Origin: a virus
Length of the DNA stretch: 29,332 nt
Virus record (IMG/VR): IMGVR_UViG_3300029319_000336
Span: 1-29,332 of that record
Reading direction: 5' to 3' (one strand)
Of this stretch, positions 15,321-29,332 are shown one piece after another. A program made the position numbers and the translations under genes. The number at the start of each line of letters is the position of its first letter. Position 1 is the first letter of the stretch. Below the pieces are notes generated by a model that did no database searches, was not told where the DNA came from, and worked only from the letters and a program-made list of their open reading frames with translations.

Positions 15321-15884
15321 ATGAACTTAAAAGAATATATTCACATATATCCAAATACGATTCCATTTAAATTTTGTGATCAAATTATTGAAGAGTATGA
15401 AAATTCAGATGATTGGGTGCCAGGTACAGTAAATAATTATAATATCGCACAAAGTAGAAAATGTGAAGCAATTTATCTTTCTACTAATGAAGTAATACAA
15501 AAAAAATTTAATGTTAGAAAGAATATAGATGATGACATTTTTAAAATAGTAAATGCATCACTAGAAAAATATATGAAAAAGTGTAATGCTTTGGGTTACA
15601 TTAATGTTAAGGGGGATACAGGATATATTCTTTTAAAATATCATACAGGAGATTATGTTCGTGAGCATGTTGATACTTGGTCAGGTGAGAATAGAACTTT
15701 AAGTTGTTCTATGATTTTAAATGATGATTATGAAGGTGGTGAGTTGACATTTTTCAATGGTGAATATAAACTAAATCCAAAGAAAGGTGATATTGTAATA
15801 TTTCCCTCAAGTTTTACATATCCACATCAAGTCCTACCAGTTACATCTGGAACTAGGTACGCAATCATTACATGGATAAGATAG
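15321..15884 (+). CDS. 2-oxoglutarate/Fe(II)-dependent oxygenase (prolyl 4-hydroxylase-like)
   Basis: A 187-aa cytosolic enzyme of the 2OG-Fe(II) superfamily, which couples oxidation of 2-oxoglutarate to hydroxylation of a substrate. The catalytic set is visible: H116-x-D118 in YVREHVDTW, the distal H169 in TYPHQVLPV, and R179 in GTRYAIITW for 2OG binding. The middle strand pattern GGELTFFNGEYKLNPKKGDIVIFPS is typical of the P4H family. Such genes are frequent in cyanomyoviruses; the substrate is unknown. Placed between fibre genes and with its own promoter, it may act on a virion protein or on host components; this is inference. The next promoter starts directly after its stop. Confidence 0.88.
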   Translation: MNLKEYIHIYPNTIPFKFCDQIIEEYENSDDWVPGTVNNYNIAQSRKCEAIYLSTNEVIQKKFNVRKNIDDDIFKIVNASLEKYMKKCNALGYINVKGDTGYILLKYHTGDYVREHVDTWSGENRTLSCSMILNDDYEGGELTFFNGEYKLNPKKGDIVIFPSSFTYPHQVLPVTSGTRYAIITWIR

Positions 15885-23779: not shown

Positions 23780-25270
23780 ATGAAAAAATTTGTTATTGTT
23801 GGGTCTGGTTCAGCTGGACTCATTGCTGCTAGTATGATAAAGACTTATTGGAAAGATAAGGTAGATGTAACAGTTATACATGATAAAAGTCAAGGGAGCA
23901 TTGCAGTTGGAGAAAGCACTACTCCTTTAATTCATGGTTTTTTGCATTTTTTTGGATTATCGGAGAGAGATTTAATACGAGATTTAGATGTAACTATAAA
24001 ACTTGGAATAAATTTTAAAAACTGGATTCCCAGTACTGAGTATTTTCATGGATTTACTCAAGTTGTAAAAAAAGAAAAAGATAATGATCCAAGTTCAGTT
24101 TATAGTATTCTTAATAATGTTTATGATGGTGGATCTCTTTTTAATAAACCACTAAATGAAGTTCCAAAAAATATTTTTGATAATTATGCATACTCACTTC
24201 ACATTGATACAAAACAATTTACTGATTATATTCATGATAAATTAAAGAATATGGTTAATTTTGTAGATGATATTGTTACGAGAGTAAGAGTCAATACTGA
24301 ATGTACTAATATAGAAAGTATTGAGTGTAAGTATAATGGAATATTCAATGCTGACTATTTTATAGACGCATCTGGTTTTAATACCATATTATTCAAACAT
24401 CTCAATCCTAGATGGAATGATATATCTAAATATCTGCCGATTGATAGAGCAATTCCGCAACAAGTTCCTTATAATTTTAAAAATGAACTTCCATCTTATA
24501 CATTAGCAGAAGCAACAGATAATGGTTGGATATGGAGAATACCAATTGGGAATAGATATGGAACTGGTTATCTATATTCCTCTAAGTTTACGTCTGATGA
24601 AGAGGCACGAGAAAAATATAATGATTGGTTAGTCAAGAATTTTGACACTAAACTTACGAGTGATCGAATTATAAGATATAAACCTGGATACTACGAGGAT
24701 TATTGGATGGGTAATTGTCTAGCAATTGGTTTATCAAGTGGTTTTGTTGAACCACTAGAATCAACTGGACTTCATATTGTTATTACACAGGTATTAAATT
24801 TTATCAGATATAATTCAAGTTTAAAAAGTTTAGAGTTTGACAAAAAATCTGTTAATAAAATTAGTAGAGATTTTTACGTTGATACTATAAATTTCGTATG
24901 TTTACATTACAATACAAATCGAACTGACTCTGAATTTTGGAAATATATTACAGAGAATAAACTTGATTGGGTAAAAGATGTTGAACAAAAATGTAAGGAA
25001 GATTTTTTGGATATAACTTTCTTCAGAAATAATCCAACTCATAACATTTGGCCTTTAGAAAGTTATATATCAGTTGCACAAGGTTTGAATATGTTTAGTA
25101 AAGATGGAATACAAAATTATCTTAATTCAAAATCTGATGGAAGGGGAATAATTAAAGATGGTAATGAAATATTAGAATTTGCCAAAAATAAATATAAAAA
25201 TCAAATACATCAAAAAAATATTCAAGAATTTGTATCACATAAGGGAATAATAGACTCAATTCATAAATAA
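23780..25270 (+). CDS. Flavin-dependent tryptophan-halogenase-like enzyme (VirX1/PrnA family)
   Basis: A 496-aa FAD enzyme. The FAD-binding GxGxxG (G8-G13 in VGSGSAGL) opens the protein. GEST at 44-47 and the probable catalytic Lys (K74 in TIKLGINF, position of PrnA K79) follow. The halogenase hallmark W-x-W-x-I-P is exact (W250-I-W-R-I-P255). FVEPLESTG at 322-330 includes the Glu equivalent to PrnA E346. All residues needed for halide activation therefore appear present, so the gene is likely active. A cyanophage homologue, VirX1 from phage Syn10, is known to halogenate, preferring iodide. A flavin reductase partner would have to come from the host; none is seen here. The gene lies between two fibre genes, with no separate promoter visible, so it is probably expressed late. 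Confidence 0.88.
   Translation: MKKFVIVGSGSAGLIAASMIKTYWKDKVDVTVIHDKSQGSIAVGESTTPLIHGFLHFFGLSERDLIRDLDVTIKLGINFKNWIPSTEYFHGFTQVVKKEKDNDPSSVYSILNNVYDGGSLFNKPLNEVPKNIFDNYAYSLHIDTKQFTDYIHDKLKNMVNFVDDIVTRVRVNTECTNIESIECKYNGIFNADYFIDASGFNTILFKHLNPRWNDISKYLPIDRAIPQQVPYNFKNELPSYTLAEATDNGWIWRIPIGNRYGTGYLYSSKFTSDEEAREKYNDWLVKNFDTKLTSDRIIRYKPGYYEDYWMGNCLAIGLSSGFVEPLESTGLHIVITQVLNFIRYNSSLKSLEFDKKSVNKISRDFYVDTINFVCLHYNTNRTDSEFWKYITENKLDWVKDVEQKCKEDFLDITFFRNNPTHNIWPLESYISVAQGLNMFSKDGIQNYLNSKSDGRGIIKDGNEILEFAKNKYKNQIHQKNIQEFVSHKGIIDSIHK
25262..25269 (+). promoter_or_regulatory. Late-type promoter octamer for the Gly-rich adhesin
   Basis: CATAAATA, 19 nt before the ATG at 25289, overlapping the end of the halogenase gene. 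Confidence 0.55.
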
Positions 25271-26520: not shown

Positions 26521-26844
26521 ATGTCTGACGATAAATCTCCTAACTTTGTTGAAAAAGGAAAAAATCTTGCAAAGTTCTCGTGGGAGTTAATTAATTATAT
26601 ACAAAGAAACCACGAGAAAGTTCTATTTGTAAGTGAAGAGGAATATAAAGAGAGAATTATGACATGTCGAGACTGTGATAAGTTTCGAGAGGTTCAAAAT
26701 GAATGTGCAGTTTGTGGATGTTATTTACCTGCAAAAGCAAGAATAGTACTAGATTCTTGCCCATTAGGAAAATGGACAAGTAAAAATGAAGAGTGGTTTA
26801 CAAAAGAAAAATTCAATAATATAATTGAAGACATGGACAAATGA
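26521..26844 (+). CDS. Small zinc-ribbon-like protein
   Basis: A 107-aa cytosolic protein with a Cys-rich centre: CRDCDKFREVQNECAVCGC, followed by a Cys in LDSCPLGKW. The C-x2-C...C-x2-C-x-C...C arrangement can hold one or two zinc ions. This type of small Cys-rich protein is recurrent in cyanomyoviruses next to fibre genes (DUF6171-like, from memory). The N-terminal part is a helix with FSWELINYIQRNHEK. An octamer TACAAATA and a TATAAT lie within 25 nt upstream but have poor spacing or no -35. The stop overlaps the next start (ATGA). Function unknown. Confidence 0.7.
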   Translation: MSDDKSPNFVEKGKNLAKFSWELINYIQRNHEKVLFVSEEEYKERIMTCRDCDKFREVQNECAVCGCYLPAKARIVLDSCPLGKWTSKNEEWFTKEKFNNIIEDMDK

Positions 26845-27393: not shown

Positions 27394-27419
27394 AGACCCC
27401 TTTACAGGGGTCTTTTTTT
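27394..27419 (+). terminator. Rho-independent terminator closing the late fibre block
   Basis: A 7-bp GC-rich stem AGACCCC / GGGGTCT (27394-27400 with 27407-27413), loop TTTACA, followed by a T run to 27419. It separates the late fibre-side genes from the nuclease operon. Confidence 0.92.
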
Positions 27420-27429
27420 GTACTATAAT
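27401..27429 (+). promoter_or_regulatory. Sigma70-like promoter inside the terminator, for the nuclease operon
   Basis: TTTACA (27401-27406) is the terminator loop and matches TTGACA at five of six bases. After exactly 17 nt comes a perfect TATAAT (27424-27429), 29 nt before the ATG at 27459. A strong ribosome site AAAGGAGA precedes that ATG. Confidence 0.75.
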
Positions 27430-27458
27430 AAGAATAATTAAACTAAAGGAGACCACCA

Positions 27459-27998
27459 ATGAAAGTGACAAAACTTTCTGAAATTGTTGCTCTCGGTTTT
27501 GAAGAACTCATTACTGAAGGCGATACGAGAGAAATAGGTAAATTTCTTGCCTTTCCAACTGAAAGAATTATTGCACCACAATGGTTAAGAGAAGAATGTG
27601 GTATTGAAACAGATCAATCCCCTGACGATAATGAAGGTCAACAAGAGAAGTATGATAGATTGTCTAGTAATGGTCTAAGAATACAAGTTAAGTTTCGTGG
27701 TGGAAATACACTACATATGGAACAGACTAGAAGAACAACTGGTAAAAATGCGAGTGCAGGTGCTAAGAATGGACAGGTAAGATATGCGATTGGTTCATTT
27801 GATGTAATTCTGTTTATCATTCCTAAGAGTCACGATAGTATAGACGATTGGGAATATCTTGCAATTCCAAATTCAGAACTAGAGGACAGTAGAATGACAG
27901 GATATTGTGTTGGTCAAGTGCCATCTAGATTAAGAAAAAAATATACTGGTAGAGCGAAAGAAATTATGACTCAAATGGAAGATGCTAAACGAATATAG
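27459..27998 (+). CDS. PD-(D/E)XK-like nuclease, putative restriction endonuclease
   Basis: A 179-aa protein. The core GLRIQVKFRGG (Q76-x-K78), preceded by D66 in EKYDRL, has the D-x(9)-(E/Q)-x-K spacing of PD-(D/E)XK nucleases. The strand FDVILFIIP (114-122) and the HMEQTRRTTGKN basic stretch are usual in restriction-type members for DNA contact. The gene overlaps a DNA methyltransferase by 17 nt, a typical R-M arrangement, and starts the operon behind its own promoter with the best ribosome site in the region. It may cleave host or rival DNA lacking the phage methylation. Alternatives are a repair or host-DNA-degrading nuclease. The fold call is from motif reading only; no family name is assigned. 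Confidence 0.65.
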   Translation: MKVTKLSEIVALGFEELITEGDTREIGKFLAFPTERIIAPQWLREECGIETDQSPDDNEGQQEKYDRLSSNGLRIQVKFRGGNTLHMEQTRRTTGKNASAGAKNGQVRYAIGSFDVILFIIPKSHDSIDDWEYLAIPNSELEDSRMTGYCVGQVPSRLRKKYTGRAKEIMTQMEDAKRI

Positions 27999-28962
27999 TA
28001 TAGGAGATAGTAGAGAACTTCTGAAAGAAGTTGAGTCCAGTTCGGTGGATTTAATTTATATTGACCCACCTTACTGTACTGGTCGAGACTTTTATCATTT
28101 TAATGATAAGTTTAAATCTAGTCAAGATTATAGAGAACAATTAATTAAACCTATGATTATTGAGTGTCATCGAATACTAAGTGATGTTGGAAATATTGTT
28201 GTTCATGTAGAACCTAAAATATCTCATCATATCAGAATTGTATTAGATGAAATATTTGGAGAAAAAAGATTTAAGAATGAAATTGTTTGGATTTCGGGAG
28301 GTAATCACAAATCACTAAAACAATTACAACGACATCACGATACGATTATTGTTTATCAAAAAGGAACAACATCAATCTATAATCCAGAGCATAAAGATTA
28401 TGATGCTGATACTTACAGTAAGGCAAAGATGTGTAAGTTTCGTAAACAAAAGTATAATACATCAGCGTTAGTTAATCGACAACCAAATGTTGTGTCAAGA
28501 CCTAACTTGAGATATGAATGGAATGGTAATTTTTTACAATGGCATATCTCAAAGGAAAGGATGCAAATGTTACATGATGACAATAGACTAGAGTATTCCC
28601 CGAATACTGGAATACCTAGAGTTAAAAAATATCTTAATGAAATGGATGGTATTCCAATTAAAGATGTATGGTCTGACATCAAACAAATACAGGGTGTAGA
28701 GAAGTTAGATTATGCTACACAAAAACCAGTTGCATTATTAAATCGTATTGTTAGAATGTTTAGTAATGAAAATTCTATTGTATTAGACCCCTGCTCTGGA
28801 AGTGGAACTTTAGGTAGGAGTGCCATTATTACAGGAAGAGATTACATTCTATTTGATATTAATGATGATGGTAAAAAATTATTTGAACAATCTTTAGATA
28901 ATATGCCAGTTGAAGAAGTGACACAAGAAGTAACGACACCTCTCACAAAATTGCTACAATGA
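27982..28962 (+). CDS. Beta-class DNA methyltransferase (N6-adenine or N4-cytosine)
   Basis: A 326-aa SAM-dependent methyltransferase. The catalytic DPPY motif is near the N-terminus (D28-P-P-Y31 in YIDPPYCTGRDFYHF), and the SAM-binding motif is at the C-terminus (VLDPCSGSGTLG), preceded by YATQKPVALLNRIVRMF. This circular order (motif IV, target recognition region, motif X/I) defines the beta class, which includes type III Mod and many type II enzymes. The central part (about 100-230) is the likely recognition domain. The length suits a stand-alone type II-like enzyme; Mod subunits are usually much longer. It overlaps the nuclease before it and the helicase after it (ATGA), so all three are translated together. 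It may protect phage DNA from the neighbouring nuclease. Confidence 0.92.
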   Translation: MLNEYSIGDSRELLKEVESSSVDLIYIDPPYCTGRDFYHFNDKFKSSQDYREQLIKPMIIECHRILSDVGNIVVHVEPKISHHIRIVLDEIFGEKRFKNEIVWISGGNHKSLKQLQRHHDTIIVYQKGTTSIYNPEHKDYDADTYSKAKMCKFRKQKYNTSALVNRQPNVVSRPNLRYEWNGNFLQWHISKERMQMLHDDNRLEYSPNTGIPRVKKYLNEMDGIPIKDVWSDIKQIQGVEKLDYATQKPVALLNRIVRMFSNENSIVLDPCSGSGTLGRSAIITGRDYILFDINDDGKKLFEQSLDNMPVEEVTQEVTTPLTKLLQ

Positions 28963-29332
28963 ATATATCAAACGAAAACACTATGCAACTAAGACCACAT
29001 CAGTTACAAGCACTTTGGGAAATGCAACAATCCGATAAAGGACAAGTGATTGTTCCTACTGGTGGTGGTAAGACGATGTGTATGATAGAGGATGCCAAGA
29101 CAAGATTTGCACAGAATAGTTTACCAAAGACTATTGTTGTAGTTGCACCTCGTATCCTACTTGCAAATCAGTTGTCAGCAGAGTTCTTAGAGTTCATCAC
29201 AGATGTAGAGGTCATTCACGTTCATAGTGGAGAGACACATCATAAGAGTACAACTAAGACAGATGAGTTAGAATACTGGTATCACAATAGCACAGAGAAC
29301 TTACTTATATTCACTACATATCATTCACTACA
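28959..29332 (+). CDS. SF2 helicase, N-terminal part (cut by window end)
   Basis: The first 124 residues of a DEAD/DEAH-type superfamily 2 helicase are present and the frame is open at the edge. A Q-motif-like LRPHQLQAL (11-19) is followed by Walker A VPTGGGKT (32-39), and motif Ia is in IVVVAPRILLANQLSAEF. Such domains occur in type I and III restriction subunits, in UvsW-like repair helicases and in many marine phages. The Walker A lies within 40 residues of the start, so there is no N-terminal DNA-binding domain as in T4 UvsW. The start overlaps the methyltransferase stop (ATGA). Whether motif II (DEAH/DECH) and a C-terminal nuclease follow cannot be seen. Confidence 0.85.
   Translation, partial: MNISNENTMQLRPHQLQALWEMQQSDKGQVIVPTGGGKTMCMIEDAKTRFAQNSLPKTIVVVAPRILLANQLSAEFLEFITDVEVIHVHSGETHHKSTTKTDELEYWYHNSTENLLIFTTYHSL

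Follow-up and report, generated by a model that had tools for sequence, protein, structure and literature searches.

A putative Type II-like restriction-modification gene pair in a fragment of a T4-like marine cyanophage and its viral relatives

Complete restriction-modification (R-M) pairs encoded by viruses are known from giant viruses, among which chloroviruses are thought to degrade host DNA by R-M and marseilleviruses have been proposed to exclude competitors (PMC7019647, PMC7253447). The cyanomyoviruses are without denA, denB and ndd, and the breakdown of host DNA may proceed in them by an undescribed method, according to a 2010 review (PMC2984593). In the open-access literature searched, no complete R-M pair was described for T4-like phages, and the cases encountered were restricted to giant viruses. 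The stretch of DNA analysed here (the window) is a linear virus fragment of 29,332 bases, and it exhibits PHROGs matches to a gp59-type helicase loader, a single-strand binding protein, and T4-type baseplate and tail genes, with the single-strand binding protein showing identities of 83% to Marine virus AG-345-L05 and 78% to P-SSM2. These matches and identities place the window among the T4-like cyanomyoviruses, and its source is, judged from the sequence, a T4-like ocean virus infecting cyanobacteria. T4-type major capsid genes were observed in two of the 12 records carrying the genes described below, and a terminase-nuclease family search over the carrier records gave no match. No integrase was detected in any of these 12 records, in line with the lytic-type phage setting described in an earlier note on this DNA, although most of the records are fragments and the absence is weak evidence. 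Other genes were also observed in the window, such as a tryptophan halogenase-like gene (23780-25270; PF04820, E 8e-84) directly 3' of the tail-type genes, a 2OG-Fe(II) oxygenase-like gene (15321-15884) inside the tail gene region, and a gene whose small DUF6171-like product contains several CxxC motifs (26521-26844).

The three overlapping open reading frames (ORFs) to which the earlier note had drawn attention are present in the window on the strand and at the positions shown in Table 1, with 17 bases shared between the nuclease and methyltransferase ORFs and 4 bases between the methyltransferase and helicase ORFs, and the single sigma70-like promoter that it had placed ahead of the nuclease was likewise found. 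The promoter score was reached by 1.5% of shuffles of the 150-bp region upstream of the nuclease. Sigma70-like elements located 50-68 bp 5' of the nuclease start were observed in the window and in most subfamily-a relatives and were rarely equalled in shuffles, while the T4 late-promoter motif was detected upstream of the nuclease in only one contig (L193) among the window and its relatives. The sigma70-like elements suggest early transcription by the host polymerase.

Table 1. Positions of the features of the locus in the window.
Feature	Position	Strand	Remark
Terminator-like hairpin of the preceding gene	27394..27413	+	Overlaps the -35 box of the sigma70-like promoter
Sigma70-like promoter, TTTACA-17-TATAAT, 11/12 matches (putatively early-type)	27401..27429	+	
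PD-(D/E)XK nuclease (predicted), 179 aa; candidate active site E35, D66, Q76, K78; TRR motif 90-92	27459..27998	+	
Beta-class N6/N4 DNA methyltransferase, 326 aa	27982..28962	+	Overlaps the nuclease gene
N-terminal part of an SF2 helicase common in cyanomyoviruses, truncated at the contig end	28959..29332 (ORF 28959-29330)	+	Neighbour, outside the unit

Scans of viral contigs detected the nuclease in 47 other contigs, several of which are near-duplicates. The methyltransferase lies directly 3' on the same strand in every nuclease contig long enough to check, and every methyltransferase with at least 48% identity has the nuclease directly upstream, except for that of L038, which is cut by the contig end; methyltransferases below about 36% identity represent different genes without the nuclease. 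The two genes are thus adjacent, as in Type II organisation, and the unit is the nuclease and methyltransferase pair, with the helicase as a neighbour. The genes surrounding the pair vary by lineage and include cyanomyovirus genes, gp46/gp47-like genes (L039), dUTPase and IMP-dehydrogenase-like genes (L161, L189) and a DnaE-like polymerase gene (L163), these neighbours having been identified by eye. One of the carrier phages contains a second nuclease and methyltransferase pair, in which a PDDEXK_11 protein precedes a Dam-type methyltransferase (L024:10435-11366), and a phage contig of 169 kb has an ORF with an NPPY methyltransferase-like motif just 5' of the pair studied here (L163:4820-5737).

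The nuclease showed no significant match in Pfam, PHROGs, NCBIfam, PADLOC, the PDB sequences or 50,697 phage genomes, no convincing family matches were obtained for its distant relatives, and PDB sequence searches with the single protein or a profile returned chance matches only. No match was detected in the plasmids searched, no bacterial homologue was found by a pattern scan of bacterial genome contigs, and none lay near 80 bacterial relatives of the methyltransferase. The nuclease profile, which recovered seven of seven carrier phage records as a check, matched none of 398 genomes from the phylum of Neptuniibacter and none of 395 from the phylum of Acidiluteibacter, cyanobacterial genomes being outside this sample. 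The putative nuclease family is new to the libraries searched. In L039 (7075-8004) the nuclease has about 118 extra N-terminal residues, and no convincing family match was obtained for this extension.

The AlphaFold model of the nuclease reached a pLDDT of 86.1 and a pTM of 0.83 when distant relatives were included in the alignment, compared with a pLDDT of 42 for 18 close relatives alone. In the Foldseek search against the PDB, NhoI and Eco15I, both restriction enzymes, filled the top eight rows (best E 6.7e-4), ahead of an Hjc resolvase and I-Ssp6803I. Structural realignment placed I-Ssp6803I at the top (Z 12.3 over 126 residues at 2.7 A), Hjc second (Z 8-9.4) and NhoI at 7.5; according to the guidance for the alignment tool, values of Z below 8 possibly reflect just a common arrangement. 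Nearly all top structural matches are PD-(D/E)XK proteins sharing the alpha-beta core fold, and the predicted model adopts the PD-(D/E)XK fold that the earlier note had proposed. Residues E35, D66, Q76, K78, R80, T90-R91-R92 and N97 are invariant in 15 diverse nucleases, a comparison reaching down to 28% identity with the window protein, so that the D66/Q76/K78 site proposed beforehand is preserved along with E35. D66 and Q76-K78 sit at modelled strands 67-69 and 74-79, and the invariant pattern represents a candidate active site of the PD-(D/E)XK type in which glutamine occupies the second acidic position.

Within subfamilies, a crude pairwise count gave dN/dS values of about 0.06-0.18 for both genes, indicating that both are under purifying selection and that the nuclease is maintained as functional. 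Different histories were observed for the two genes in contigs L058-L062, which carry a subfamily-b nuclease (78-79% identity to that of L037 and about 38% to the window type), while their methyltransferase shows 83-85% identity to that of L002/L004 and merely 73-75% to that of L037/L057. The methyltransferase tree groups L058-L062 with L002/L004 (98/95), and a tree constrained to unite subfamily b is worse by 28.9 log-likelihood units (AU p 0.024), in a post hoc test whose groups were picked after the identities were known. Between L059 and L002 or L004, the DNA identity is 63-82% upstream, about 46-65% in the nuclease gene and 78-92% in the methyltransferase gene. In this one lineage the nuclease gene alone appears to have been swapped between phages with the methyltransferase kept, which would be expected if a single methyl mark governs both nuclease types; if the methyltransferase protects, both types should share a target.

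The pair itself, the predicted fold, the invariant residues, the linkage, the purifying selection and the nuclease-only exchange support the reading that we consider likely, namely a compact phage-encoded Type II-like R-M module, probably early-expressed, acting against host or competitor DNA. The module would be transcribed early in infection from the sigma70-like promoter, the methyltransferase would mark one short site in the phage DNA, and the nuclease would cut that same site when unmarked, in the chromosome of the host or the genome of a second phage infecting the same cell; we infer the cleavage activity, the shared site, the timing and the target, whether host or competitor. Against this reading, the closest structural alignment is to a homing endonuclease and not to a restriction enzyme, the structure is a predicted one with a best Foldseek E-value of only 7e-4, and the nuclease is absent from the isolate phage records searched. 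The cyanophages Syn9 and P-HM2, which are without the pair, still degrade host DNA (PMC7852597), so the pair represents at most an accessory route, and competitor exclusion is as likely a role for it as host-DNA degradation.

That same structural alignment, to the PD-(D/E)XK homing endonuclease I-Ssp6803I, points to a free-standing, self-spreading homing endonuclease with the methyltransferase as a passenger or a protector of the occupied allele, an explanation that we regard as unlikely. In its favour, the place of the pair relative to the helicase varies in cyanophages and the nuclease gene appears to have moved alone once; T4-like phages commonly carry free-standing homing endonucleases, and examples are known from cyanophages as well (PMC6083498, PMC3037559). 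A methyltransferase would nevertheless be superfluous to a homing enzyme, yet the linkage is complete down to 28% nuclease identity among quite different neighbours, and the active site is intact in all members, in contrast to the mostly decayed copies in one cyanophage homing endonuclease family (PMC3037559).

The methyltransferase matches PF01555 (E 9.7e-39, 134 bits), with the DPPY motif (28-31) first and the SAM-binding GSG (273-275) near the C-terminus, a motif order that bears out the beta-class assignment of the earlier note. A DPPY motif favours N6-adenine methylation. Its PDB relatives include EcoP15I Mod (E 2.3e-12) and RsrI, and the best bacterial relatives in a bacterial genome scan reach about 33% identity; with no close bacterial homologue, the hosts are unlikely to bear the same mark. 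Some kb 5' of the pair, an extra methyltransferase-like ORF with an SPPY motif was observed in three contigs (L002:476-1441, L004:1-948, L005:179-1138). The methyltransferase might shield phage DNA from host restriction, with the nuclease a recombination or junction-processing enzyme co-transcribed by chance; the Hjc resolvases among the structural matches fit such an enzyme, and protection against host restriction is a known function of phage methyltransferases (PMC4190342). This account is quite unlikely, given that no solitary methyltransferase of the subfamily was found among the viral contigs scanned and that conservation inside the subfamilies is about equally strong for the nuclease and the methyltransferase.

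The third ORF is an SF2 helicase, as had been supposed, matching ResIII (PF04851, E 1.6e-13). The fragment in the window shows 50-55% identity to cyanophage helicases and 34% to the second helicase of phage Bellamy, and searching with a full-length relative (L007) gave matches in 418 phage records, nearly all from cyanophages, at identities of up to 84%. A 2010 survey reported a helicase, possibly the same gene, in 14 of 16 cyanophages (PMC3037559), and in isolates the helicase is surrounded by small genes without a named function. That the helicase is the third component of a restriction or DNA-processing system is very improbable. It does follow the pair directly and in the same direction in the window and 11 other contigs, but it lies directly upstream in 2 and is kb away or unseen within the flanks in the rest, and none of the 418 helicase-bearing phage records contains a match to the nuclease. 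Of the operon put forward in the earlier note, the nuclease and methyltransferase stand as an R-M-like unit on the fold, invariant residues, linkage and purifying selection, and this pair recurs in other genomes; the helicase is not supported as a third component, and the triplet recurs in a subset only. A filing of the locus as Type III Mod-Res was rejected, as the nuclease is a separate protein of 179 aa and the helicase, occurring without it, is independent of the pair.

If the R-M module is active as proposed, the phage may cut the DNA of its host or of rival viruses with its own DNA marked safe, and the pair is a testable candidate for host-DNA degradation in the phages bearing it. We tentatively propose, as a possibility, that a new family of restriction enzymes, housed in an offensive R-M module, occurs in uncultured cyanomyoviruses of the sea and in other aquatic phages, the nuclease being swapped as a cassette and the module supplying one undescribed route of host- or rival-DNA breakdown in cyanomyoviruses. 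The nuclease family could include new cutting specificities. The putative R-M pair is of a kind known from giant algal viruses, while the nuclease family and the cyanophage setting appear new.

Among known systems, Type III Mod-Res resembles the locus in that the methyltransferase is similar to Mod catalytic domains such as that of EcoP15I Mod and a ResIII-domain helicase adjoins, whereas the nuclease here is small and separate, the helicase gene is a cyanophage gene in its own right, and the two enzymes are not combined in one Res protein. I-Ssp6803I, a homing endonuclease of a cyanobacterial group I intron, gives the closest structural alignment (Z 12.3) but has 14% identity, and the nuclease here is strictly tied to a methyltransferase. 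Type II R-M systems share the adjacent genes, the PD-(D/E)XK nuclease fold (predicted here) and the beta-class methyltransferase, and the fold neighbours of the nuclease model include NhoI, Eco15I, HinP1I, HhaI and PvuII; the differences are that the pair here resides in a lytic-type phage and that the nuclease has no convincing sequence match to restriction enzyme families in the libraries searched. The R-M systems of chloroviruses and marseilleviruses (CviAI and relatives) differ in belonging to giant viruses of eukaryotes, and the likeness to them lies in organisation and proposed role: a complete, virus-encoded and always adjacent pair, with host or competing viral DNA as the object of attack (PMC7019647, PMC7253447).
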